Notes under the pieces: model-generated
What the model was told of the DNA's origin: nothing
The model's database searches: none
What the model saw: the letters and a program-made list of their open reading frames with translations, nothing else
Shown here: piece by piece, positions 751-21,824 of the stretch
Layout: each line of letters opens with the position of its first letter
Position numbering within the stretch: position 1 is the stretch's first letter
Source: a virus
DNA length: 22,170 nt
Virus record (IMG/VR): IMGVR_UViG_3300043466_001255
Coordinates: 1 to 22,170 of that record
Strand: one strand, 5' to 3'
Program-made: the position numbers and the translations under genes

Positions 751-3700
751 ATGTTCGTCTCGCAGATATATGACGAGGCCGCTGAAATCCTTGCAACAAC
801 CGATCAAAAAAAGGTTTTTCGCAAGCTAACGCAGGCCGTTCAGACTCTCATGGAGTCTGGTCATTACTTCCACACCAATCAAGAGGTTGATGTCTGTACT
901 GGCTGGGACGGGCAAACAATTACACTCCCTCGCGGCATTGAAGTGCCGCTTGGAGTGAATGTTGATGGTTCGCCAACATACTTCAGGGGAAGGCTGTTCC
1001 AGTACCATGTCAACAAGGGTGGAATGTACAATCCCGTTGATTGGGCATGGGATGACAGGGGCTTTGTGGCTACTGTCATGGATATTCGCCAGCCTTCCCA
1101 GCTTGTTGCCATCTCCGAGCATAGCGCAGACGCTGGAGGCCAAATTCGCGTCATTGGAACAGACTCCAATAATCGCGAACTACGCACACAGATGCCCAAT
1201 GGCACAACAGTTGACGGCATTCTGGTTCCAATCCATGCGCAGTCTGATTTCCCGCTTGGTTCGATTGAGCCAGACGGCGTTACCATTCAAACGCGATCAA
1301 CGGCTGTATCGCCGCTTACAAAGTTCGTAGCAGCAACGACGCACCAGCTTCAATCTGGTCAGTCTGGAGTGCTTTCTCTTGGATCTGGGACGATGCCTAG
1401 CTTCATTTACGCCGGACAGACTTACTATATCGGCGTTGATGACACGCTGACCATTCAGCTTTACCAAAACTCGCTTGATGCGAAGGCCGGAAACAATCCG
1501 ATTTTCCTGCAAAGCATCTTGAGTGCCGGAACCATCACGCTAACTGATGCCCGTCCTAGCAATCTGCTTACGGCGATCAATCTTCAAACTGTTCCTACGA
1601 TTGCTATTGATTCGCCAAACAGCGTTGCCTTCTCTGTTGGAACTGGATCTGGATTTGCTTCAGAATTGCCATCTCCGCTTGTTGCGAACACGACATATTT
1701 CGCGCAGTCTCTGGATTCAGACGATCTGCTAATATATCCCAGTATCACAGACGCACAGAACGGAACAAATCCAGTTCTGATGACTGGCAATAGCGGAAAG
1801 TTTAACACAGACATCCGCAAGGCAATTGCACCACAAACAACGCTTTCATTTTCCAGCAAGCACTATTACCAGACTGGCGATCAAGTTCAGGCATTCACAT
1901 CTGGCGGAACGCTTCCTACGCCACTAATTGCCGGACAGAATTACTTCGTATTCGTGATTGATGAGGACACTTTGTCAATCCACACGAATGCTGCTGACGC
2001 AAGCACAGGCGCAAATCCAATCATTTTAACAGACAGCGGGTCTGGAACAAATTCCTTGGTTAAGTTGGTTGATGCAACATCAACAACTGGAACAATTAAT
2101 CAAGTAACCGCTCCAGACCTCACAATACCGCCACCTGTAGTAACAACAACCGCATCTGCGATTGCTACTGTATCTGGTGGTATAACGAATGTAAATATTA
2201 CAAAAGCTGGAAGTAAATATACGGATGCACCAATTGTTACATTTGATAGTCCAAGAAAAACGTACACGTTTACTGGGACAACAGTCACTGGGTCACCAAC
2301 AATTTCTGCTGTTTCTAATTTATCAAATATTGTTATCGGACAAACCATTAGTGGAACTGGAATATCACTTGGTACAATTGTTACTGGGATTGGAACTTCA
2401 ACAATCACAATTAGCAACTCCGCTACTGCCAATGGCACATTAGTGCCTTTTGTTGTTGCTCCAACCGTCTCTGCTGATTCTCCACAAGCATTTTCAACGG
2501 CAACTGGATATGCAGTAATGATTCCAGATAACACTACTCCAACTGGAACATTCGCAGTAGGAAGCATTGTAATAACATCAGCCGGACAAGGATATACAAC
2601 AGCACCAACAATAACAATTAGTGCGCCGACTACAAATGTTGCCTTCACTGCGAACAGCACTTCTGGAAGCGGCGTATTAACTGCAATTGCTGCGGCTACT
2701 GTTACTTCACTGCAAGTTGGTGCGCCAATCTATGGCGACAACATTCCTGATGGAACAACGATTGTTTTAAAGCTGTCTGGAACATCTATACAAGTAAGCA
2801 ATCACGCAACAAGTACGGCAACAGCAGCAGATTATGCGTCAACAAGAACCACGGCGGCAAACGGTGCAAGGGCAACTGCTACCCTAGAGACATCTTTTGT
2901 TTCAAATATAACAATCCCAGCGGGACTTGGTGGATCTGGATATGAAAACCCTCCAATTGTAAAAATTGATGGTGGTGGCGGAACTGGCGCAACTGGAACA
3001 GCCCAAATTTCAAATGGGTCAGTAACATCTGTCTCGCTTGTGACGCAAGGAACTGGATACGTTACGCCACCAGTTGTTTCGTTTATTCCATCAACTGGTG
3101 TTTTTGTAGAGTTTTCATCAAGCGGAACGCTACCAGCACCGCTTGAGTCAGGCACTGCGTACAGGCTGGAAACTCCTTTAAATGCATCCACTGGAACCTA
3201 TTCCATTAGGAACGCAGACTTCAGCGAAGTAAACATTACTGGATCTGGAACTGGAAATTTTTATGTGGCTCTTACTCGTCCGTTTAGAATCACATTCAAC
3301 AGCACTTGGTCTGGCGATTTCTCCGGCATCGTAAACAGTCCGCCGCAAGGCTTCTACTTTGCATCTGATTATCTTTTGCCAAACGGAGTTGATTCTACAA
3401 CTCAGTACTTTTTCAAAGTAATTGATAACAAAACTGCTGAAGTTTATTCATCGTCATCAAATGCAACAAGCTCACCTCAAGCGAGAACAGCAAACACCAT
3501 AAACGGGTCAAAAACGATAACGTCTGTTAGCCCATCTACTGCCCTTGCCATTGGTCAAAAAATCACTGGCGCGGGAATCGCGGCGAATACATTTATTGAC
3601 GCAGTCTCTGGGTCTACAATTACGCTAAACAAACCCGCCACAGCTACTGCCACTGGGGCGACAATCGGCATAACAATTGGAATTGTTGGAGCAAGGAGCA

Positions 3701-4713
3701 TTGGCGTAGGTCAGTCATATTTTGCCATTCGCGTTCCATCATATGCCAAGGCATACAACAACCTCATTGTTCCTAGTTCCATCGAATACTTGAGCAATGG
3801 GCAGCTTGTCAAATTTTCTTCTACTGGTTCGCTTCCTTTACCATTGGACGCTGTCACAGATTATAAAATTACCATATCTGGAAACAATGTGTCGCTGACT
3901 GACACATCAAATGTACCGATTGTATTTTCTGATGCTGGTATTCCTACGCTTCCAGTAGGCCAGATGAGCATGAACATTGTGCGTACATTTACGCCAGTCG
4001 CATCTACCAGTATTGACGCTGTTGGATCTTTGTTTGAAATAGGCGATCAAGTAACAGTGCGTCCGGCTGATGGAGACACGCTCCCTGCTGGCCTTGTTGC
4101 AAGCACGATGGCAACGCCGCAGTATTATTATGCGAGACCAGTTGACGCTAATAGCTTTGAGCTTTACGACACCTATGCCAACGCAATAAACACTGCATCA
4201 ACAACTGGCAGGATTACTTATTACAACACTGGCGACAGCGTAAGCAGCGCATTCTTTGTAGATTCAATTCTTCCTCCTACCTTGGTTAAGAGCATCCTGC
4301 ATGTTGAAAAGCCTGAAACTCTTGGTTATGTCAGCCTGTACGCTCTTGATTACGGAAGGAGCAACGACATGGCTCTGATCGGTCAATACCACCCAACAGA
4401 AACCAATCCAAAGTACCGCAGGATTCGCATTGGAAAGCATTGCTCATGGGCAAGAATCATCTACCGCATGGCCCATCCATTCATTACCAGCCAATACGAC
4501 TACATTCCCGTAGAAAACGAGCGTGCAATCATTGCGGCGGTTCATGCCTGTGACCTAGAAGACAAAGACTTCATGGAGCAGGCACAAATGTATTGGACGG
4601 CTGCTATTTCTTATCTGAAAAACCAGAACGAAAGCATGGAGGGTCACGCTATGCAGCCGCCACAAATTAACAATATTACTTACGGCGATTACACAGATGA
4701 TGTAATGTTTTAG
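751..4713 (+). CDS. Connector/tail-tube A-like virion protein with a ~1000-residue repeat insertion
   Basis: 1320 residues. Residues 1-~190 and ~1173-1320 read as the two halves of a phage head-tail adaptor or tail-tube A-like protein. The N-terminal part has an opening helix, then TLPRGIEVPLGVNV and GQIRVIGTDSNNREL; the C-terminal part has LGYVSLYALDY, YRRIRIGK and a terminal helical segment (NERAIIAAVHACDLEDKDF). T7 gp11 is about 196 residues, close to these halves joined. Between them lie about 1000 residues of Ser/Thr/Gly-rich beta repeats of three interleaved kinds (separate entries). The following nozzle-like gene supports a gp11-like position. The inserted repeats are likely surface-exposed and could act as an adhesin-like or collar decoration. 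Structural role is fairly secure from context; the exact adaptor assignment is inference from pattern memory. No SD is seen; the ATG is nine bases after the upstream TAA. Confidence 0.85.
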   Translation: MFVSQIYDEAAEILATTDQKKVFRKLTQAVQTLMESGHYFHTNQEVDVCTGWDGQTITLPRGIEVPLGVNVDGSPTYFRGRLFQYHVNKGGMYNPVDWAWDDRGFVATVMDIRQPSQLVAISEHSADAGGQIRVIGTDSNNRELRTQMPNGTTVDGILVPIHAQSDFPLGSIEPDGVTIQTRSTAVSPLTKFVAATTHQLQSGQSGVLSLGSGTMPSFIYAGQTYYIGVDDTLTIQLYQNSLDAKAGNNPIFLQSILSAGTITLTDARPSNLLTAINLQTVPTIAIDSPNSVAFSVGTGSGFASELPSPLVANTTYFAQSLDSDDLLIYPSITDAQNGTNPVLMTGNSGKFNTDIRKAIAPQTTLSFSSKHYYQTGDQVQAFTSGGTLPTPLIAGQNYFVFVIDEDTLSIHTNAADASTGANPIILTDSGSGTNSLVKLVDATSTTGTINQVTAPDLTIPPPVVTTTASAIATVSGGITNVNITKAGSKYTDAPIVTFDSPRKTYTFTGTTVTGSPTISAVSNLSNIVIGQTISGTGISLGTIVTGIGTSTITISNSATANGTLVPFVVAPTVSADSPQAFSTATGYAVMIPDNTTPTGTFAVGSIVITSAGQGYTTAPTITISAPTTNVAFTANSTSGSGVLTAIAAATVTSLQVGAPIYGDNIPDGTTIVLKLSGTSIQVSNHATSTATAADYASTRTTAANGARATATLETSFVSNITIPAGLGGSGYENPPIVKIDGGGGTGATGTAQISNGSVTSVSLVTQGTGYVTPPVVSFIPSTGVFVEFSSSGTLPAPLESGTAYRLETPLNASTGTYSIRNADFSEVNITGSGTGNFYVALTRPFRITFNSTWSGDFSGIVNSPPQGFYFASDYLLPNGVDSTTQYFFKVIDNKTAEVYSSSSNATSSPQARTANTINGSKTITSVSPSTALAIGQKITGAGIAANTFIDAVSGSTITLNKPATATATGATIGITIGIVGARSIGVGQSYFAIRVPSYAKAYNNLIVPSSIEYLSNGQLVKFSSTGSLPLPLDAVTDYKITISGNNVSLTDTSNVPIVFSDAGIPTLPVGQMSMNIVRTFTPVASTSIDAVGSLFEIGDQVTVRPADGDTLPAGLVASTMATPQYYYARPVDANSFELYDTYANAINTASTTGRITYYNTGDSVSSAFFVDSILPPTLVKSILHVEKPETLGYVSLYALDYGRSNDMALIGQYHPTETNPKYRRIRIGKHCSWARIIYRMAHPFITSQYDYIPVENERAIIAAVHACDLEDKDFMEQAQMYWTAAISYLKNQNESMEGHAMQPPQINNITYGDYTDDVMF
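2167..3084 (+). repeat. Repeat class B: four GxGYxxxPxVxI units
   Basis: Four short units follow the plan V-x-x-(V/I)-x-(I/V)-x-x-x-G-x-x-Y-x-x-x-P-x-(V/I)-x-(F/I), at about 2167-2250 (NITKAGSKYTDAPIVTF), 2558-2630 (VITSAGQGYTTAPTITI), 2908-3000 (GLGGSGYENPPIVKI, followed by GGGGTGATGTA) and 3013-3084 (LVTQGTGYVTPPVVSF). This type of repeat is familiar from phage and bacterial surface proteins. They are interleaved with class C units between the first three and the fourth class A units. Confidence 0.7.
2263..3690 (+). repeat. Repeat class C: three GxxTIxxVSxxxxLxIGQxIxGxGI units
   Basis: Three units at about 2263-2445, 2653-2835 and 3490-3690 share: a variable lead strand, L-x-(I/V)-G-(Q/A)-x-I-x-G-x-(G/N)-I, (G/A)T-x-I, a strand ending in TI-x-(I/L/V), and a terminal (S/N)-x-(A/P)-T-A. 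Clear cores are NIVIGQTISGTGISLGTIV and ALAIGQKITGAGIAANTFI. The pattern is common in phage structural proteins as a mobile beta module. The first copy lies in a visibly A/T-rich stretch (about 2150-2450) compared with the flanking connector part. Confidence 0.7.
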
Positions 4714-11399: not shown

Positions 11400-14300
11400 A
11401 TGAGCGTTCTTGATGCCATTGATGCTGAAATTAAAGCGGAGGATGATGCAAGCAAACTTGCTGCAAATGAGCCTCTACAAAAACCCGTAGAAGAGGCCAA
11501 GCCGCCTGCTGGAGTACTTGGATTAATTGATGCAGAAATTGAAGCTGAACAAAATCCAGTTCCATTTGCTGGCAAAAAAGCAGAAGAACTAGATACGACA
11601 GATTATGAGGTTCTAAATTATCTCTCCCCAGAAAAACTTACGGAAGTTTCTAATACTAGAAAAGACATCCCGCTGCCGGATGATCTTTTGCGCAAAAAGT
11701 TCGATTACCAAAGAAGCCTTCCTTGGAACGAAGGCATGAGGACGATGGAGGATTGGTACAACATCGGCGCGGGAGTTGTAGAAACTGGTAAAAGCCTAGC
11801 CAAGGGTGTTGGAAAGGTTGCTTACAATGTTTTTGATCCAACTGGTGACAAAGGATTTCAGTCAATTAAAGACTTTGTATCGCCAGCAGTAGAACTTCCA
11901 TCAATGGCAGCAAATCTTGCTACCAAACTCTATGAAGGCGGTATGGATTGGACTGACAGGTTGAGCGAAAAGTTTGGACTTCACGACCAAGAAAAAAGTT
12001 TTGAAAACTATAAAGCGAGGCATCTAGTTGATCAGATTCAGGCTCAAGCAGCACAAGAAGACCCCTCTATTTACGGCAGGCTGATTAAATCTAACTTTGT
12101 AAAAGAGGGACTTGCTCAAATTGCATTAAGCACGATTCCTGATGCCCAGACAATTAGCGAACAAGAGGGAGTGTCCCTTGAAAAAGCAAAGCAAATACGC
12201 AAAGACAGGGCATATCAAATTGCTGAACAGACTGCATCTGAAAGGGCCGCAATGGAGCCAGAAACAGATGAAGACATTGCCACCGCAGGAACATTTCTGC
12301 TTCCTAGCAGCTTGGGCCTTGGAGAAATGGGGCTTGTCTCGCTTGGTGCAGAAGCCGCATTAAAGTCGGCTCCGCAGATTGCCCGTGGAATTAAATATGC
12401 AGGGAAAACTGACGCTCAAATTAAAGCAATCAATGACGCTGCTCAGATTGCAGCTAGGGAAAAGGCATTAGAGACACTTGCAAGGAGGCAGCAGCCTTCA
12501 TTTATCGGAAAAGCAGCCGGAGCGGTCGCTGATAAAATTGATGACGCTGCAATTGCTTTAAAAAATATTTCTGAAAAGACTCCGCAAATACTTAAAGACG
12601 TTGTTCCAGTTGTAGGCGGTGGAGCGATTGGATATGGAGTAAGCGATGAAAACAGGGGGGGCGGAATTCTTGCTGGAGCATTACTTGGCAAGGCTGGAAG
12701 GCCAGCATTAAAAGCTGCTGCATATGCGACGAAGTTGCCTGCACTGGTTCGTGAGATTGATGCAGCTAGGGCTATTTCTGCTGGAGGGACAAAAGGAACA
12801 TTTGAAATTCTTGGAGGAACGCCAAACGTAAGCAAGGAGGCCGCAAAAATTCTTCGATATGGAGGAAGGAGGATTGATGACATCCTTGAAAATAGCGTCG
12901 AGTACGCCAAAGCCGGAATTCACGGCACAACGCTTGCGTTGGCTACGGGCGCATTGGAATCGGCTTCTCCTGAAGAACTGAACAACATGCTTGCCAGCGG
13001 CTTGTTCTACATTGGCGGAGGGAGGGCTGCTCACCATGTTTTTGGCAAGCTGACTGGCGTAGATCCAGTTGTTGAGGCAAGAAGGCGCAGGCAGCAAGTC
13101 CAAGATGATCTCAAGACATACCAAGACCTTGATCAAGCAAGCAAAGACACTCTAAATTCAGTTACCAGTTGGGATAACGTAATTGCAAATCGGCAGAAGG
13201 TCGTCCAACAGGCAGAAACTGCATACAACGATGCCCTTGCAAGAGGATCTAACGACGCTGAAAGACTTGGGAAAAACCTGAAGGCACAAAGGGCCGCTCT
13301 TTCCATGCTAAATCGCGCCAATGTGCAAACACGCAACGAGTATGGTCGCCAATTCATCACGCAGCTTACTAGGAACAACCAGCTTGTTAATGGCGTATTA
13401 AGGGCTGGTCAGAACAATGTGGGAATCAGCATTCTTACACCTAAACAAATTTTTGATAAATTCCGGCAAGATCCTGCAAATGCAGCAGCCACAGATCAAG
13501 AATTGATGGATGCTGCCCAGCAGCGAGGATTTTACAGCACGCCGGAGGGCGCGGTTGAGTATCAAGCCGGAATGGGAATGGAAGCCCCCAAAAGCAAGAT
13601 GATCTTTGATCGCACAAAGCCATCAATCGTTATCAACGCTGACCACTTAAAGGCTCGCATGCTTATTGATGGTGAATCTGCCGCAGAGGTATTAAACCAT
13701 GAAGTTGGACATCATGTCCGAAACATCCCAGAATTCAGGGATGCCAACAAAGATGCTGAAGCGATGCTATTCAGCCAAGAAATTCGCGACCCATCCGGCA
13801 ATATTGTAGCGACAACTTCTGGACGATATAGCCCCAAGGATCTTGTCGAAATGTACAAGAAGAACTACATGAAGGACAAAATGCCAGATGAAATAGAACA
13901 GCTATCAAAGCTGGCTGGCCTTTGGGACTTCTCTCGCAACGATTTAAACGAAAATGCAGTCGCCTCGTACATGAGGGATGAGATTATTGCAGACCTTAAT
14001 GCTGAAACGCTTTCACGCCATCTTGGCGAGGATCTTGACTCCGGCACAAAGCACATCATTGATTTAGCTCGCGTAAAAACCAAAAAAAGCATCCTAGACC
14101 GCGCTATTATTAAATTTGCAGGGCTTGGTGGAAAGGGAGATCCTACTAGCGAGCTTACTGGGGCTGAATACTCGCCGGAAGTCATGGCGGCTAATAGGAA
14201 CGCCATGCGTGCGCTACAATCGCTTCAGGGCGAGGTTTCCGCTGCGGTTAGATCACCTGATGAGCCAAAGATCAACAGGGCAGAGATGATGAGGAATAAG

Positions 14301-17300
14301 GCTCTTATGGAGCGTTATGGCAAGTACAGCGGCCTATTCAAAACCAAAGTTCAAGCGCAGATATTCGACGGCAATGGAAACCCAGTTGGTGCGCCAATCG
14401 ACATCGCTAATCCAAACGCCTCCGAAGGATCATGGCAGAACAAGAATGGGCAAGTACGTCAACTTAATGGTTACGGACAACGTCCTGATGAAGTCAGCGA
14501 AGCAAATGGTATTGTTATCCCAGATGGCGGCTCGCTTGTCGTTGGAAGGCAAATTGTCATGCAGCCAGATGGCAAAACTCCTATATTGCTTGATACCAAG
14601 GAGGCGAAAAAACTTCAAAAGGATCGCACTGATGTAGTTCGCAATGCACTGAACACGCCCGATGAGGGCGCACCAAACCGATTTGAACCTACTGGCGATC
14701 CAGATGGAACATGGCGTGGAACGCTAACTCCTCTACAGATTGATGCAATCAAGAACCTTCCTGAAGGGATTGTTCCAAAATCAATCAAGGAGCATATTCT
14801 GAAGATTAACGACATGATCGTGCGCGGAGATGGATCGCGAATGCTTGTCGATTACGCCGCAGTAATGAACGACAGCGGCAAATACACGCCGTATTCAGCC
14901 AAGATTTACGATGTTGTTCCTATCGGAATGCATCTTTCAAAGAATGGTCACTTCCTTGTCACGACAATCTCCGTAGGGCGCATGTTCGACAAGCTAAATG
15001 CTTGGAGTGAGCGTATGCCTGCACGCCTTGCCCCTTGGGGTGGAAGCAAGGATGCATTCTTCAAGGAATTCACCGAAACGTATCTCCAGAACTGGCAGAA
15101 TGGGCTGGCTGGTGAAACTGGCCTTGCCGGAACGCCTGCCGAAGCAATCGCAAAGAAGAATATCTTCGCGGACTTCCTGAACCTTGCCACCAAGGACACC
15201 GCTCCGCTTAATCCTGACCGCACAAAAACGCCTCGCAGGAAAGGTGATGTTCGCGGGAAAGACATCGACCGCACGATCATGTCCATGCGTCTTGATCACA
15301 TGGCAGAGCTTATTGACAACGATGGTGCGCCGAAGATTCCCGTCAGTTATCAAAAGGCAAAATTCAACATGATGCCAGCCGAGCCTGCTCCTGAAACTCC
15401 AATGGAGGAGCGCAGGCCGTCCGCAATCAACCTTGGCATCAGGGCGACTTACACTCCCGAAAGAAAGCCGTTTGAAGCGCGGTATGTGGCTCCAGAAGGC
15501 GCAGCACTTACGGCGAGTTTGGTAGCAAGCGGAACTAGCCTAGAGTCATTCGGCAAGGAGTCACTCGCGAAACTTGCGGAATACTATGGAATTACGATTC
15601 CAGATGGCGCAAGCCGTGGAGAGATCATTGATTCCATCAACGAGAGGCCGATTGAGGCTCCTATAGCTGCACAGCCACAAGAAACCAAGTTCTCCTTCAC
15701 GACATCTACCGAGCGTGACGATGCAATTAAAAAGCTAATTGCCACAGGAGACGACCAAGGAATCCGCGACCTTAATAGAACCACAATACTTAGCGCACTA
15801 GCTGACCTTAAAAACATTCAAGTCGCGATTGAAGACGCGAAGGGCGTGTACAAGGGGGATAAAGAAGTTTCTTCCATTATCAAGGTCACTACGACTAGCC
15901 AACAGGATCTCAACAGGGTCAGGAGTCGCATTGCAGATGTTGCAAAGATGTTCCAGCAAATGGAATTCCTTGAAGAAAAAATGGGCGCAGGAAAACGAGG
16001 CCTTTTTGGGAAAACTGATGAAGATGGATTTAAACATATCGGAAGTTCCACTCTGTATGTCGAGGGAGTTACAGATGATCAGATTGAACAGGCTAGAAAA
16101 CAGGCCGGAATTGATGGATTAACGCTTGCAGATGGACGAATTGAGTTGTATGACCGAAGTGATGACCCAGAATTCTTCAACCGAGTTACAGCCCTTGACA
16201 CCGCAATCCGACAAGCTGGAGGTGTGGTCACATCGTCTGAAACAGGCGTTGCATCAGTCAAATCCTATAGTGAAGATCCGCAACGATACGCCGGAACAAT
16301 CGGGTACGACGACCAGTCGCTTCAGATTTATTCCGCCGCAGGAGAATCAGAGCGACTAAAGACTCCCTTAGTTCAGAAGTTGATGGGCCTTATGGGAAGG
16401 CCGATGGAGGCTCCAAAGTCTGGCAAGAGATCCTATTTTGAGGCAAAAGACTTAACGCCGGAGCAAGTCAAGAAGCAGGTCGGAATAGCTCAGAGATTTA
16501 TTAGCCTCCCATTAAATGATTTAGCCAATCCTTTAGTCAAAAAGGCATATGAGCGTCTTAACATAGAAATCGGAAAGCAGTACGATTACCTAACCGAAGG
16601 CAAAGACGGAACCAAGTTCACAAGCCAGCCTTATGAATTGGCTGGAGAGCCTTACGAATCAAGCGCAGATGCCATTAACGACATCAGGACAAAGAATAGC
16701 CTGAAGTTTCTAAAGACCGATCCTTCCTCGTTTGGGCCTGAAGGTGAAGATTTCAGCTACCATCCGCTATTGCAGGACAGCGGCAGGGTAGACGCAAATG
16801 GAGTGAGGTTGACATATAACGACCTTTTCCGCGCAGTGCATGACGCGATAGCTCACGGCTTATTTGGGGCTGAATTTGGGCCTATTGGCGAAGAGTCGGC
16901 ATGGCAGACGCACATGAGGACGCTAGACGATCCTTGGGCAAGGTGGGCTTTGACCACAGAAACAAGGGGTCAGAATTCATACGTCAACTACCGCGAGCAA
17001 ATGCTTGGACAAGACGGCATGCCACTTCAAAAAGGCGACGATGGGTACATTCCGCTTAAAGAGCGTGGATTTGCAGAGCAGAAGGCCGCACTACTTCCAC
17101 TTGAAGACTCACTCACTGGTGATAAGAAAGTGGACGAAGTAACACGCAAACTGATGAACGAGATTGGCGAAGATCAGTCTCAAGGCAGTGCCGGAATCAG
17201 CTTCATGCCAGCCGACGAAAAATATCCCACAAGCGAGCGTGGATTCTACTCCGGCCTGCAAAAGACGATTGACGAAAAGATGCCAGCAAAGGCATCGCCA

Positions 17301-20300
17301 CAGCAGATTCTTTCAATCGTCGACAACCCGCAGAATGCAAAGCCTGAAGAAGTCAAATGGAGCAACCTTGCTGGCTTCTTGGAGGGGAAGCAGAGCGTTA
17401 CCAAGCAGGAGGTACTGGATTATCTCAAGAACGAGGGATCGGTGAAGTTTGAAGAAGTAAGCACACAGCTAACTGAAAAGCAGAAGGGTGAGATTGAATG
17501 GGCAAAGAAAACTTGGGATAATCTGAAAAAAGAATATCAGGATCTTCAAGAAAAATGGGCTTCTGAAAAAGATCCGATTAAAAAAGCACAAATTGCAGAA
17601 GAAGCATCCAGCATAGAGCAAAACATGGATGATTTGGATAATGAGATAAAAGAATCAACCAAATTGCAGAAAACACAATACTCCCAATACGTCCTCCCCA
17701 ATGGTGAGAACTACAGGGAGGTTGTGCTGACGATGCCAACAGGCGCAGAAAATGCTGAACTAGCGTATAATGACTATAACCAATCCCTGCGTGAAAAATA
17801 CGGAGTTGAAGATATTGGATTAGTAATTTCCGAACAAGAACGAGAAATAGCTCAAAAACTCTATGAAAAAATTAATGAAGGCTATAGAGGAGAATACACC
17901 TCCTCCCACTTCCGAGACATCCCCAACTATGTAGCCCACATGAGGCTCAACGAGCGTCCTGATAGCGAGGGACGCAATGGTTTGTTCATTGAAGAAATCC
18001 AGTCTGACAGGCATCAGCAGGGAAGGGAGAAGGGGTATGCTGGGGAAGGCACGAATGAAATGGAGGAGTTTGAAAAGTTGCGTGATATTCCTGCATCACA
18101 ACGCACACAAGAACAGCAAGCTAGGTTTGATGAATTATCTTTCAAGGTTCTAAAATCGCAAGAAAGAGGCATCCCCGACGCACCCTTCCGCAAGGATTGG
18201 TCAGTCCAGATGTTTAAGCGTGCCTTGCGAGATGCCATTGAAGGCGACAAGGAGTGGATCGGCTGGACTAAGGGAGAGACGCAGGCTGAACGATTTGATA
18301 TAAGCAAACAGGTTGATGAAATAAGGCACTATCCAGACATGGGTTATGGAGAAGATAAATATATCCGAATAGAACTAGACCTAGCTAATGGTCAGAAACA
18401 CTTGCTTTCTGTAAATAAAGAAACTGGAAACACAATCTCTGGCGTTGGCCCAGCGGAATGGTCTGGAAAACCACTTGCAGAAATTATTGGCAAGGAGACG
18501 GCGGATAAAATCCTTTCTGGACAAGGAGAGGACAAAGTTTCTGAGCCGCAAGGGTTAGCTCGCCTTGGAGGAACAACACCAAAAAACTACAAATCCCTGT
18601 CTGGTGAAGGATTAAAAATTGGAGGTCAAGGCATGAAGGGCTTCTACGATCAGATCCTCCCCAAAGAGGTCGGAAAGTACGTCAAGAAGTGGGGTGCGAA
18701 GGTTGAGGAGGGGAAAATTGGTCAATCCATATCCAAAGAAGACATGGACATGGGGGATATTTCCGATGCAACTCCAGAAGAACTTGCACAACTTGAAGCG
18801 CAAGGAATGGTAACTGGGCCATCCGTTAAAATCTGGAAAGTCGCCATCACTCCAGAGATGCGCGAGAGCATCAAGAACGAGGGACAGATCGCCTTCATGC
18901 CCAAGGTTGCCGTTGTCCCTGAACGCTTCACTGGAACTGGAGGGGAAGAGGCTCGCAGGGGCAAGTATGTAGAGCCTCCCAAGTTCTTTGGTCAATTCAA
19001 CATCTCGCAATACGAGAAGGGCGGGAAATTCTTTGACGCTGAAACTGGAGAGGACATCACCGATAAGTCTTATGAGAACGCGTCTATATCCGTAGATGGA
19101 GGGAAGCCATCGCTAGTTGCAAACAACGAGTCTGAAAGCATGGGTACTGGCCCTATTGTCCGCAGCAATCTCTTTAAGCAAAAGGCCGGATGGAAATGGA
19201 TTTCCGAGAATGCGCCAGAGACATCCACAATCGTTTCGGTAGAGGGTCAGGGCAAGCACGTCTACACACTGCGTGCAGACTTCCAGAATGGCGTTAAAAT
19301 GGCCCGTTATCCCGACAAGACCAGTGAGCCAAGATTGCGTCCAACAGGCCGTGGCGAGCTTGTTATGGGGCAAGAAATCGGTCGTATTGACATCAGGGGC
19401 AAGGAACATCCTGTATACGACACGATCACGATTGGCGAGAAGCCTGCAAGCGACATCTCCTTCATGCCTGCCGCAAAGCTGGACGAGGCACATGCCAAGG
19501 CTATTGAGTCAGGAGACATGGAGGAGGCGCAGAGGCTGGTTGATGATGCGGCGAGGAAGGCGGGGTTGGATACCAATGGAGAAGATGGATGGTGGCATGG
19601 CTCACGATCTAAAGATCCGTTTACAATTTTCAACACAGACAACACGCCAGAAACTGGATGGAGAGGTCTTGGTGCTTACTTTGGTATTGGTGAGCAAGCA
19701 AAGGGATTTGGGTCAAATAACAACCGAAGATTTTATCTTAAATTAGACAAAACGCTAAATACTACATTTGAGAAACTAATTGATCGTTTCGATGATCCTG
19801 TAGAAGCAAGGAGGGCGTTGGAGCAAGAAGGATATGATTCTGTAATGAGCGATCCTTATGCTGGAGCAATCGCAGTTTTCCGCCCTGAACAAATCAAATC
19901 CGCAGACCCCGCAACCTACGACAACGAAGGCAAGCTGATTCCTCTCTCAAAGCGGTTTGACACTAGTAATCCCGACATCCGCTTCATGCCCTACTCGCCG
20001 GAACTTCCAAAGACAGAAGACGGCAAGGTCGATTGGGCTGGATTTAAAACAAGGACGCAGGAAACTGCAAAGCCGCTGGCTGCATTGGCTCCGCTTGGTG
20101 GCATTAGTTTCATGGGTAAAAAAGAAAAATCGCCAATGCCAATGTCTGCACTGAATGTACTCCATGCAGATAGCGATGTTCTTCCAAAACCTGACAAAAA
20201 AGTAGCGAATGCAAAAGTCGCCGTTCAGCTTGCAGATATTGCTGAACAACATCATGGAAGGGTTATTACCAGTAACGACATCACGCTAGAAGAAGAGCAA

Positions 20301-21824
20301 AAGTTTATTCAGAATGGTGCAGATGAAGCAGAATCTGCCTTAAAAGCCAGCGGCAAGAATGCTGGTAACTGGTACTCTACCGCAATGAAAGCTGCTGTAG
20401 CTGTTGCAGGAGTGATTCATAAGGTTATTTCTGACCCCAAAGAAGCAATGAAAAATCCTCACTTTGCCAAGGAGCCTGATCCTACCAAAGCTGCACAATT
20501 TGCATTTTTGATTCCGCTGGCAATTACTTCTCAAAATCAAACTGTTCCACTAAATACTCGTTACGGAGAAGAGCAATTTAATCATTTCCAAAAAACGGGA
20601 AAGTTTGACCCAACAAAAATTTATGGAGAGAAGGCCGCTTCTATTAGTGGGAACCTTGAACTGGCAAACCATTTAATTGATGTCATGGGAGGCTTAACAA
20701 AACTGGAGGATTTTGTTAAACAAGAGTTTTCAGTTAAAGAATTAGAAGATGCAGCCAGCAAAATCGCAGGTAGAAAGATCACCATAGCTGGACGAAAGAC
20801 AGATATGGTCAATGGAGCGGCTATTTTTGGGCCAAAGATTGGTCAAGGGTTCCTCCAAAACTTAATGGGCAAGTTTGATCCAGTAACAATTGATTTATGG
20901 ATGCGTCGAACATGGGGGCGTTGGACGGGAGATGTAGTTGGAGATGGAGTTACTGGCGTGCGCCTTGGAAGGTTAATACAAGAGTACCGCAATTCCGGCA
21001 GGCGACTTCCAGACAGCCTGAAAAATTTGCGAACGGTAATGCGAAGCACTGGAACAACATCAACAGGAAAACCAACAAAGCCTGAATTGACAGTTTCTGG
21101 GAATGTGCAAGATCGAATTGAAACTGATCCTGAATTCCGAAAAAGCATTGAACAGCTTTCAAAGGAAGCTAATGCAGAATTTCAAGGTTATTACAAATTG
21201 ATGGGTTCGCCTGTGTCAGATGCAATGATCTTGGAAATAAACAAAGTTGCTCCAGCTGGGAAAATAAAATATTCCGAAGAAACAAGGAATGAGCGTGATT
21301 TTGCATACAACAAACTGATCAAAGAGCAGCTTAAAATTAAAAATGATCTTGATGAAAAATGGGGTCAACTCTCTTCAGTAGAGAAAAAAGCACTGAATGC
21401 AGAAGATCCTAAAAAAGCCATTTCAAAAGCAAAGTGGATTGAACAACAGCATGCTAACGCAGGAAGAACAAAGGTTCTAGCAAATGAGCAAAAGAATGCC
21501 ATAAAACCACAATGGGCTTCTGCTGCAAAATCAATCGTTGCTGATTTGAATCCAATTGATATTCCTACAGATCAAGACAGGGTTGTTATCTCCCGTGTTG
21601 TCAATGGAATACGCAAAACACTGGAGTCCCGTGGATACAATGTGACCAACGCTGATGTGCAGGCTATTTTATGGTATCCAGAAAAGGATCTATGGGCTAA
21701 ATTAAGAGGTGAAGAGGAATCAAATCTAAAGCAATCATATGACGACGAATTACTCAAAATCGCAGAGCAACGGGGTTACGGAGAAGAAGCAAGAGCCGTT
21801 GCCAAGCGAATCAGAGGCTATTGA
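11400..21824 (+). CDS. Giant 3474-residue ejected/polyvalent multidomain protein
   Basis: Uninterrupted 3474-residue frame in the position of T7 gp16 and about the size of the N4 virion RNA polymerase, although no polymerase motifs are seen. Residues 1-~650 are mostly helical, with two near copies of VLxxIDAEIxAE at the start, Gly/Ala-rich hydrophobic stretches at ~297-327, ~397-434 and ~506-551, and a coiled coil at ~561-644. From ~735 on it is a chain of domains typical of phage polyvalent proteins: metallopeptidase (HEVGHH, 767-772), unassigned domain, SAP-like segment (1381-1417), HDxxxH/TETRGQN domain, EEIQSD domain, GWKW domain, ADP-ribosyltransferase-like domain and a C-terminal VTID/QAILWYPEK domain. 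FMP motifs mark several joins. Likely carried in the virion and delivered with DNA to act on the host. No SD; the ATG follows the upstream TAG by nine bases. Confidence 0.88.
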   Translation: MSVLDAIDAEIKAEDDASKLAANEPLQKPVEEAKPPAGVLGLIDAEIEAEQNPVPFAGKKAEELDTTDYEVLNYLSPEKLTEVSNTRKDIPLPDDLLRKKFDYQRSLPWNEGMRTMEDWYNIGAGVVETGKSLAKGVGKVAYNVFDPTGDKGFQSIKDFVSPAVELPSMAANLATKLYEGGMDWTDRLSEKFGLHDQEKSFENYKARHLVDQIQAQAAQEDPSIYGRLIKSNFVKEGLAQIALSTIPDAQTISEQEGVSLEKAKQIRKDRAYQIAEQTASERAAMEPETDEDIATAGTFLLPSSLGLGEMGLVSLGAEAALKSAPQIARGIKYAGKTDAQIKAINDAAQIAAREKALETLARRQQPSFIGKAAGAVADKIDDAAIALKNISEKTPQILKDVVPVVGGGAIGYGVSDENRGGGILAGALLGKAGRPALKAAAYATKLPALVREIDAARAISAGGTKGTFEILGGTPNVSKEAAKILRYGGRRIDDILENSVEYAKAGIHGTTLALATGALESASPEELNNMLASGLFYIGGGRAAHHVFGKLTGVDPVVEARRRRQQVQDDLKTYQDLDQASKDTLNSVTSWDNVIANRQKVVQQAETAYNDALARGSNDAERLGKNLKAQRAALSMLNRANVQTRNEYGRQFITQLTRNNQLVNGVLRAGQNNVGISILTPKQIFDKFRQDPANAAATDQELMDAAQQRGFYSTPEGAVEYQAGMGMEAPKSKMIFDRTKPSIVINADHLKARMLIDGESAAEVLNHEVGHHVRNIPEFRDANKDAEAMLFSQEIRDPSGNIVATTSGRYSPKDLVEMYKKNYMKDKMPDEIEQLSKLAGLWDFSRNDLNENAVASYMRDEIIADLNAETLSRHLGEDLDSGTKHIIDLARVKTKKSILDRAIIKFAGLGGKGDPTSELTGAEYSPEVMAANRNAMRALQSLQGEVSAAVRSPDEPKINRAEMMRNKALMERYGKYSGLFKTKVQAQIFDGNGNPVGAPIDIANPNASEGSWQNKNGQVRQLNGYGQRPDEVSEANGIVIPDGGSLVVGRQIVMQPDGKTPILLDTKEAKKLQKDRTDVVRNALNTPDEGAPNRFEPTGDPDGTWRGTLTPLQIDAIKNLPEGIVPKSIKEHILKINDMIVRGDGSRMLVDYAAVMNDSGKYTPYSAKIYDVVPIGMHLSKNGHFLVTTISVGRMFDKLNAWSERMPARLAPWGGSKDAFFKEFTETYLQNWQNGLAGETGLAGTPAEAIAKKNIFADFLNLATKDTAPLNPDRTKTPRRKGDVRGKDIDRTIMSMRLDHMAELIDNDGAPKIPVSYQKAKFNMMPAEPAPETPMEERRPSAINLGIRATYTPERKPFEARYVAPEGAALTASLVASGTSLESFGKESLAKLAEYYGITIPDGASRGEIIDSINERPIEAPIAAQPQETKFSFTTSTERDDAIKKLIATGDDQGIRDLNRTTILSALADLKNIQVAIEDAKGVYKGDKEVSSIIKVTTTSQQDLNRVRSRIADVAKMFQQMEFLEEKMGAGKRGLFGKTDEDGFKHIGSSTLYVEGVTDDQIEQARKQAGIDGLTLADGRIELYDRSDDPEFFNRVTALDTAIRQAGGVVTSSETGVASVKSYSEDPQRYAGTIGYDDQSLQIYSAAGESERLKTPLVQKLMGLMGRPMEAPKSGKRSYFEAKDLTPEQVKKQVGIAQRFISLPLNDLANPLVKKAYERLNIEIGKQYDYLTEGKDGTKFTSQPYELAGEPYESSADAINDIRTKNSLKFLKTDPSSFGPEGEDFSYHPLLQDSGRVDANGVRLTYNDLFRAVHDAIAHGLFGAEFGPIGEESAWQTHMRTLDDPWARWALTTETRGQNSYVNYREQMLGQDGMPLQKGDDGYIPLKERGFAEQKAALLPLEDSLTGDKKVDEVTRKLMNEIGEDQSQGSAGISFMPADEKYPTSERGFYSGLQKTIDEKMPAKASPQQILSIVDNPQNAKPEEVKWSNLAGFLEGKQSVTKQEVLDYLKNEGSVKFEEVSTQLTEKQKGEIEWAKKTWDNLKKEYQDLQEKWASEKDPIKKAQIAEEASSIEQNMDDLDNEIKESTKLQKTQYSQYVLPNGENYREVVLTMPTGAENAELAYNDYNQSLREKYGVEDIGLVISEQEREIAQKLYEKINEGYRGEYTSSHFRDIPNYVAHMRLNERPDSEGRNGLFIEEIQSDRHQQGREKGYAGEGTNEMEEFEKLRDIPASQRTQEQQARFDELSFKVLKSQERGIPDAPFRKDWSVQMFKRALRDAIEGDKEWIGWTKGETQAERFDISKQVDEIRHYPDMGYGEDKYIRIELDLANGQKHLLSVNKETGNTISGVGPAEWSGKPLAEIIGKETADKILSGQGEDKVSEPQGLARLGGTTPKNYKSLSGEGLKIGGQGMKGFYDQILPKEVGKYVKKWGAKVEEGKIGQSISKEDMDMGDISDATPEELAQLEAQGMVTGPSVKIWKVAITPEMRESIKNEGQIAFMPKVAVVPERFTGTGGEEARRGKYVEPPKFFGQFNISQYEKGGKFFDAETGEDITDKSYENASISVDGGKPSLVANNESESMGTGPIVRSNLFKQKAGWKWISENAPETSTIVSVEGQGKHVYTLRADFQNGVKMARYPDKTSEPRLRPTGRGELVMGQEIGRIDIRGKEHPVYDTITIGEKPASDISFMPAAKLDEAHAKAIESGDMEEAQRLVDDAARKAGLDTNGEDGWWHGSRSKDPFTIFNTDNTPETGWRGLGAYFGIGEQAKGFGSNNNRRFYLKLDKTLNTTFEKLIDRFDDPVEARRALEQEGYDSVMSDPYAGAIAVFRPEQIKSADPATYDNEGKLIPLSKRFDTSNPDIRFMPYSPELPKTEDGKVDWAGFKTRTQETAKPLAALAPLGGISFMGKKEKSPMPMSALNVLHADSDVLPKPDKKVANAKVAVQLADIAEQHHGRVITSNDITLEEEQKFIQNGADEAESALKASGKNAGNWYSTAMKAAVAVAGVIHKVISDPKEAMKNPHFAKEPDPTKAAQFAFLIPLAITSQNQTVPLNTRYGEEQFNHFQKTGKFDPTKIYGEKAASISGNLELANHLIDVMGGLTKLEDFVKQEFSVKELEDAASKIAGRKITIAGRKTDMVNGAAIFGPKIGQGFLQNLMGKFDPVTIDLWMRRTWGRWTGDVVGDGVTGVRLGRLIQEYRNSGRRLPDSLKNLRTVMRSTGTTSTGKPTKPELTVSGNVQDRIETDPEFRKSIEQLSKEANAEFQGYYKLMGSPVSDAMILEINKVAPAGKIKYSEETRNERDFAYNKLIKEQLKIKNDLDEKWGQLSSVEKKALNAEDPKKAISKAKWIEQQHANAGRTKVLANEQKNAIKPQWASAAKSIVADLNPIDIPTDQDRVVISRVVNGIRKTLESRGYNVTNADVQAILWYPEKDLWAKLRGEEESNLKQSYDDELLKIAEQRGYGEEARAVAKRIRGY
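13602..14114 (+). other. Metallopeptidase-like domain (HExxH) of the giant protein
   Basis: About residues 735-905. The sequence has ESAAEVLNHEVGHHVRN, giving the HExxH zinc motif with H767, E768 and H771. About 90 residues downstream is SYMRDEIIADLNAET, where E861 in DEIIAD is a good candidate for the third zinc ligand in gluzincin style. A preceding strand (IVINADHL) fits a zincin edge strand. Metallopeptidase domains are common in phage polyvalent proteins. Substrate is unknown: it could be a host protein or the same polypeptide. Confidence 0.75.
14277..15359 (+). other. Unassigned globular region after the metallopeptidase
   Basis: About residues 960-1320, ending at the first FMP-like site (KFNMMPAE). 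It contains short strands (QAQIFDGNGNPVGAPIDI, GGSLVVGRQIVMQ), then a compact stretch with YSAKIYDVVPIGMHL, HFLVTTISVGRMFDKL and a Trp-rich segment around APWGGSKDAFF. I recognise no family. It looks folded rather than linker-like. Confidence 0.5.
15540..15650 (+). other. SAP/HeH-like segment of the giant protein
   Basis: Residues 1381-1417 include LAKLAEYYGITIPDGASRGE followed by IIDSI. The helix, Y-G-I/L-x-(I/V)-P-x-G-x-(S/T)-(R/K)-x-(E/D)-(L/I)-(I/V)-x-x-I pattern is that of SAP or helix-extension-helix motifs, which usually bind DNA. It would let the released domain sit on nucleic acid. Short motif, so moderate support only. Confidence 0.5.
16428..17201 (+). other. HDxxxH...GE...H...TETRGQN domain of the giant protein
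   Basis: About residues 1677-1934. The core is FRAVHDAIAHGLFGAEFG, GEESAWQTHMR and TTETRGQNS, with candidate functional residues H1814, D1815, H1819, E1831, E1832, H1838, E1854 and R1856. The order of His, Asp, Glu and Arg looks like an active or metal site. I recall this block from other phage polyvalent proteins but know no established reaction for it. It is preceded by SPxEL-type strands (FTSQPYELAGEPY) and ends at an exact FMP site. Confidence 0.55.
17211..18893 (+). other. EEIQSDxHQ / GGxGMKGFYD domain of the giant protein
   Basis: About residues 1938-2498, between two FMP sites. It opens with GFYSGLQKTIDEKMPAKASP, then KPEEVKWSNL and a K-x-E-V-L-D-Y-L segment, then a charged coiled coil (~2015-2070), NGENYREVVLTMP, FIEEIQSDRHQQG (E2198-Q2207), PDAPFRKDW, WIGWTKGETQAERF and GGQGMKGFYDQILP (2408-2421). 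I know this as a widespread phage polyvalent-protein domain of unknown activity. Two stretches, about 17500-17670 and 18300-18560, look like insertions and are visibly A/T-richer than the conserved core. Confidence 0.6.
18903..19460 (+). other. GWKW domain of the giant protein
   Basis: About residues 2502-2687, bounded by FMP sites on both sides. It has GPIVRSNLFKQKAGWKWISE (W2598 and W2600) followed by strands (TIVSVEGQGKHVYTLRADF, GVKMARYPD, GQEIGRIDIRGKEHPVYDTI). Probably a small beta-rich domain. I recall similar LFKxKAGWKW segments in other phage polyvalent proteins, without known function. Confidence 0.5.
19470..19982 (+). other. ADP-ribosyltransferase-like domain of the giant protein
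   Basis: About residues 2691-2861. It has GWWHGS (H2733), then GWRGLGAYFG (Y2760), then IAVFRPEQIKSADPATYD (E2830, Q2831) and IPLSKRFDTSNPDIRF. The HG, (G)xYF and (V/I)FxPEQIKSA series is characteristic of the ART-like domain of phage polyvalent proteins and related toxins, in the H-Y-[E/Q] class. E2830 or Q2831 is the likely third site residue. It could modify a host protein or nucleic acid after delivery. The unusually short distance (about 27 residues) between the H and Y motifs is normal for compact ART versions. It ends in an exact FMP site. Confidence 0.68.
20112..21824 (+). other. C-terminal VTIDLWMRR / QAILWYPEK domain of the giant protein
   Basis: About residues 2905-3474. The core is FGPKIGQGFLQNLMG followed by VTIDLWMRRTWGRWTG (D3165, W3167), then much later DVQAILWYPEKDLW (Q3421, W3425, E3428). 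G-x-K-x-x-x-F-x-x-N-L...V-T-I-D-x-W recalls the helix-hairpin-helix/Asp arrangement of DNA glycosylase-type folds, and the same signature pair occurs as a stand-alone phage protein in other genomes (from memory). Between them lies an A/T-rich, basic helical stretch. DNA binding is plausible; a catalytic role is only a suggestion. Confidence 0.5.

Follow-up and report, generated by a model that had tools for sequence, protein, structure and literature searches.

The virus record analysed here, an IMG/VR entry of 22,170 bases (hereafter, the window), carries a gene that probably encodes the neck adaptor of a group of short-tailed uncultivated phages, with the region corresponding to the fibre dock enlarged into exchangeable arms that would serve in host contact or fibre docking. 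The open reading frame (positions 751 to 4713, plus strand) encodes a protein of 1320 residues, in which conserved ends (residues 1–184 and 1174–1320) flank approximately 980 residues of repeats. The split, repeat-filled architecture, first described in an earlier note made from the DNA letters, is confirmed. Profile HMMs started from one seed per repeat class and then iterated over the homologue set recovered exactly 7 class A (37–96 bits), 4 class B (25–57 bits) and 3 class C repeats (57–63 bits), the numbers that had been estimated from the letters, with scores far above the top scores of reversed or shuffled controls (12.8, 0.4 and 0.6 bits for A, B and C, respectively). The domain boundaries proposed at residues ~190 and ~1173 were likewise correct within a few residues. 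In profile–profile comparisons (HHalign), A1 to A7 behaved as one family, with E-values of 1e-5 to 1e-19 for most pairs, A5 being the most divergent. The classes, described as interleaved, do not simply alternate; the C repeats are nested within B and A repeats, and C1 (~502–570), C2 (~625–703) and C3 (~915–973) are clean insertions in the window protein. The features, in window coordinates, are as follows:

751..4713, plus strand: whole gene of the adaptor-like neck protein with the giant insert, 1320 aa; IMG/VR relatives number at least 187 by the N end and at least 288 by the C end
751..1302, plus strand: N-terminal adaptor-like part (residues 1–184); predicted helices 7–14 and 19–35, then beta
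1303..1521, plus strand: class A repeat 1 (185–257), profile HMM
1594..1797, plus strand: class A repeat 2 (282–349); contains insertion slot S1, empty in the window protein
1822..2055, plus strand: class A repeat 3 (358–435), the top-scoring A repeat
2089..2244, plus strand: class B repeat 1 (447–498), profile HMM
2281..2439, plus strand: class C repeat 1 (511–563), within the clean insertion of 69 residues in slot S2; lacking in most relatives
2452..2619, plus strand: class B repeat 2 (568–623), profile HMM
2656..2826, plus strand: class C repeat 2 (636–692), slot S3
2848..3084, plus strand: class B repeats 3 and 4 (700–739 and 727–778, overlapping), profile HMM
3076..3258, plus strand: class A repeat 4 (776–836), profile HMM
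3346..3504, plus strand: class A repeat 5 (866–918), interrupted by C3 (slot S5)
3496..3663, plus strand: class C repeat 3 (916–971), an insertion of 64 residues in the alignment; lacking in most relatives
3754..3942, plus strand: class A repeat 6 (1002–1064), profile HMM
4000..4248, plus strand: class A repeat 7 (1084–1166), profile HMM
4270..4710, plus strand: C-terminal adaptor-like part (residues 1174–1320); helices ~1257–1271 and 1275–1298 transferred from the model of the relative L023
4717..6858, plus strand: nozzle-type gene (P22 gp10/T7 gp12 type), 713 aa, by fold search, with a weak phrog_8040 match

The earlier note had proposed a survey of homologues for the same adaptor without the insertion. 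None was found: all 88 distinct proteins in which both ends are present carry an insert (745–1585 residues, median 909), and all open reading frames with a single end among the loci retrieved run off their contig. The relatives in these loci, found at 61%–100% identity, have full lengths of 1084–1921 residues, with protein lengths across the family climbing in steps of about 80 residues. The view that such an insertion in a connector is unusual thus stands in comparison with the named adaptors (166–250 aa) but not within the lineage, where the insert is the rule, nor in light of the cyanophage neck protein gp14, which carries a variable insertion of B modules. Searches with tblastn against 50,697 named phage records revealed no relatives of the whole protein or of either end, and none of a relative's terminase or nozzle, so that this is an uncultivated lineage; genome_contigs gave no relative either. 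The ends of one family record of 63.6 kb (G003) overlap by 127 bases, and its genome hence looks complete.

A core arrangement of AAA-B(n)-AAAA, summarised for the scaffold as AAA-[B/C]-AAAA, is shared by most of the 63 complete homologues. They have seven A repeats, or six in a small number of cases, and additional B repeats lie within the A blocks of some. Mean pairwise identity is 68%–82% for the ends and 44%–64% for the A repeats, with residues 41–110 being the most conserved segment of the family (82%). Extra modules are confined to five slots, located in A2, at two sites in the B region, at B3/B4 and in A5. The content of slot S3, occupied by C2 in the window protein, illustrates the variability: L022 has nothing there, L010 a stretch that resembles C2 but is longer, and L004 a pair of B repeats. 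Automatic slot classification was noisy at low thresholds and was not used for slot contents. On a tree of the ends (a quick tree, with many branches weakly supported), the five slots changed at least 6, 4, 5, 5 and 9 times, at least 29 changes in total. Near relatives differ by entire modules, with the flanking DNA being ~82%–92% identical, and in one pair the A5-slot module of one phage resembles a B-region module of the other. The A repeats are therefore an old, fixed scaffold, and the B and C repeats are optional modules which have been repeatedly gained, lost or swapped. Accordingly, repeated module gain, which had been read from the mixture of classes, applies to B and C, for which the changes are recurrent, but not to A, whose repeats are ancestral, with a fixed number and order. 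Collectively, this pattern suggests that the neck is a fast-changing contact surface.

The proposal that the two ends belong to one split adaptor draws on structure prediction and gene order. The AlphaFold2 model of L023, a relative of 1111 residues (pLDDT 81, pTM 0.45), has two helices at the start (7–14 and 19–35) and two at the end (1048–1062 and 1066–1089) with beta structure in between, the insert lying between helix 2 and helix 3 and strands of 18–20 residues linking adjacent repeats. A fold search of the PDB with this model gave no significant E-value (0.3–0.7); the highest-probability protein among the listed matches was the SU10 adaptor gp11, found with three chains (7z47_A, 7z4b_DU and 7z47_B; probability 0.57–0.77), with a TM-score to the target of ~0.25 over ~150 columns. 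Residues 41–110 are highly conserved yet modelled with low confidence, as an interface would be, and the conserved C-terminal tail (GHAM.PPQIN..) is also of low model confidence; both may become folded upon binding a partner, for example the portal, with the tail, by analogy, possibly forming a portal-embracing arm.

At the sequence level, no link to known adaptors was recovered. Neither Pfam scans nor searches in ten genomes gave a match to Tube (PF17212), SU10_adaptor (PF24175) or P22_Tail-4, although PF24175 did not match in any control genome either. HHalign comparisons of the joined ends with the T7, SU10 and P22 adaptors gave no signal, one local T7 alignment sitting in the expected helix-2 register, and no PHROG adaptor profile matched the window protein. 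PDB sequence searches with the protein and its modules returned nothing relevant, nor any relative of the modules. Assignment to head closure Hc2 (phrog_460) was rejected, as the match covers a B repeat only (profile positions 203–295), and the profile outside this inserted repeat (positions 1–218 and 291–385) is unmatched by the window protein. Since the known adaptors share no sequence homology with each other (PMC6702177), the missing profile match is weak evidence against membership. Identity of the window protein as a head-to-tail adaptor is thus supported by the two-plus-two end helices, the SU10 fold match and the downstream nozzle, but unproven, since no sequence profile reaches the known adaptors.

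The genomic neighborhood agrees with that of adaptors. The gene lies directly upstream of a nozzle-type gene, the product of which matched the tail protein of Pa223 (9nwi_Y, E = 3e-4) and then the nozzles P22 gp10, PhiM1 and T7 in a fold search, in addition to a weak match to phrog_8040 (head closure Hc3); the model of this product is of low confidence (pLDDT 57), and only its fold match was used. The order of adaptor followed by nozzle is that of T7, where the adaptor gene directly precedes the nozzle gene, and of P22, where gp4 (Ad3) lies directly upstream of the DNA-stabilising/nozzle gene gp10 (Hc3). The nozzle-like protein ends in a segment resembling DUF5977 (residues 650–706; E = 0.0018, which misses the curated cut-off), and a long C-terminal helix is predicted. 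In G003, two fibre-like genes (L113/L114, G003 56744–60503) are located just upstream of the adaptor; their products share the motif ESVPSLI.NL.. at the N terminus, which is probably a docking domain that both have in common. Elsewhere in the window, positions 11400–21824 are occupied by a single open reading frame of 3474 aa with a sub-threshold match to ART-PolyVal, the ADP-ribosyltransferase of polyvalent proteins (residues 2732–2836, E = 0.002). Its product is likely a giant ejected polyvalent protein, and G003 carries a 2376-aa reading frame at the corresponding place.

T7 and SU10 are among the closest known systems. The T7 adaptor consists of a four-helix bundle and a beta fibre dock (PMC6702177); SU10 has a T7-like dock, whereas P22 and Sf6 have none (PMC9509320). 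As predicted for the window protein, T7 gp11 and SU10 gp11 are built of two helices, a beta domain and two helices, and it is the beta domain, at the place that we equate with the insert, that docks the tail fibres (PMC6702177, PMC9509320). However, these adaptors have 196 and 250 aa, respectively, compared with 1084–1921 aa in the present family, contain no repeat modules and have no detectable sequence homology to it. Similarly, P22 gp4 has 166 aa, lacks the dock domain (PMC9509320) and gives no sequence match to the window protein. Partial likenesses are found in other tail and neck components. In the lactococcal 936/TP901-1 phages, the proteins of the neck passage structure (NPS) form a neck collar in which a conserved part is followed by binding modules that can be exchanged, and their CBM binds host cells weakly (PMC6669499). 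NPS is, however, a ring protein of its own, non-essential and with its modules in a terminal position, rather than an insert inside an adaptor. In SU10, a core tail protein also carries inserted domains, with four Ig-like domains lying between blades 2 and 3 of the propeller (PMC9509320); there, however, the protein is the nozzle and not the adaptor, and the domains have a mechanical role in tail elongation.

By comparison with these systems, we infer the following arrangement. The first two and last two helices would pack into a four-helix bundle of the adaptor type, and twelve such bundles would sit under the portal and above a hexameric nozzle encoded by the next gene. The beta-repeat arm of 745–1585 residues would project outward between helix 2 and helix 3, the place of the T7/SU10 dock. 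As both ends would belong to the bundle, the scaffold of seven A repeats would have to leave it and return, so that the middle part, rich in B and C, would come to lie well out on the arm; slot symmetry suggests a hairpin layout, with A1–A3 leading out, A4–A7 leading back and the variable modules at the tip. The B and C modules would occupy fixed loop slots, mostly mid-chain (between A3 and A4), and be swapped while the ends stay conserved. The resulting collar of about twelve arms would most likely contact the host surface or glycans, hold the fibres encoded upstream, or both.

The repeat classes differ in their distribution. Among the loci retrieved, A repeats are restricted to this gene; C repeats are also present in a 1387-residue reading frame of L021 and B repeats in a reading frame of L064. 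Relatives of B and A occur often in structural proteins of T4-like cyanophages, including those of the baseplate, and the gp14 neck protein of these phages (Hc2, phrog_460) contains class B copies at one site (B-profile E down to 2.5e-16): none in metaG-MbCM1 (308 aa; L208 1946–2872), 2 in S-RIM2 (390 aa; L366 51–1223) and 4 in S-T4 (456 aa; L367 30–1400). Thus, two neck proteins unrelated to each other, the adaptor-like protein and gp14, have received insertions from one module family, and the papers searched describe neither case. The cases differ in that gp14 is another protein of another phage family, with B modules only and an insert of at most ~150 residues. One candidate, the metaG-MbCM1 entry H8ZN75 (BFVD 'Gp14 neck protein'), was discarded as a misannotated 2409-aa structural protein of phrog_358 (L205 40957–48186, NC_019443), the real Hc2 coding sequence being at 95845–96771; the misannotation has reached structure libraries.

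A bolder version of the preferred reading, which we put forward tentatively and consider doubtful, is that the neck adaptor is itself a host-recognition organ, with twelve arms and B/C cassettes exchanged between phages, and that, given the mobile modules also present in gp14, the neck serves aquatic phages in general as a second site where host range evolves. Alternatively, the arm could be a structural sheath, the A scaffold wrapping along the nozzle or up the vertex of the portal and making a short tail more stable or longer, and the variable modules being tolerated, non-binding loops. The constancy of the A repeats in number and order, with a mean identity expected of a load-bearing scaffold, and the strands joining the repeats in the model, which suggest a stiff ribbon, are in line with this explanation. 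Recurrent module exchange, by contrast, is usual for exposed contact surfaces, and the neighbouring genes are retained across a protein length range of over 800 residues, so that we regard a sheath as unlikely.

That the protein is not an adaptor but a separate collar, neck fibre or other virion protein encoded beside the nozzle gene, its end helices forming some other attachment domain, appears quite improbable to us. The absence of sequence homology to any adaptor and the weak fold match would be compatible with this, and the lactococcal NPS are a precedent, being ring proteins in their own right that carry binding modules (PMC6669499). However, an adaptor fits the two-helix ends, the insert position and the gene order, and a single reading frame always contains both ends. 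No second candidate for the adaptor was seen in the stretch from the fibre-like genes to the nozzle, where G003 has only two small acidic/proline-rich reading frames besides the adaptor-like gene. Finally, a single contig could mislead if misassembly had fused an adaptor gene with a fibre gene, although nothing else was found in favor of such a fusion; with 88 distinct proteins from many independent metagenomes displaying the same architecture in one open frame, this explanation is refuted by the survey and has virtually no chance of being correct.

Adaptors are commonly regarded as small, fixed joints. The present family would represent a large uncultivated group in which the adaptor is five to ten times the usual size and combines a conserved scaffold with neck slots that swap modules, and cyanophages show a related insertion pattern in a neck protein unrelated to it. 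Should the modules bind hosts, host-range prediction would have to consider neck proteins alongside fibres and spikes; if they are structural, the family would be an example of a short tail re-engineered through insertions.
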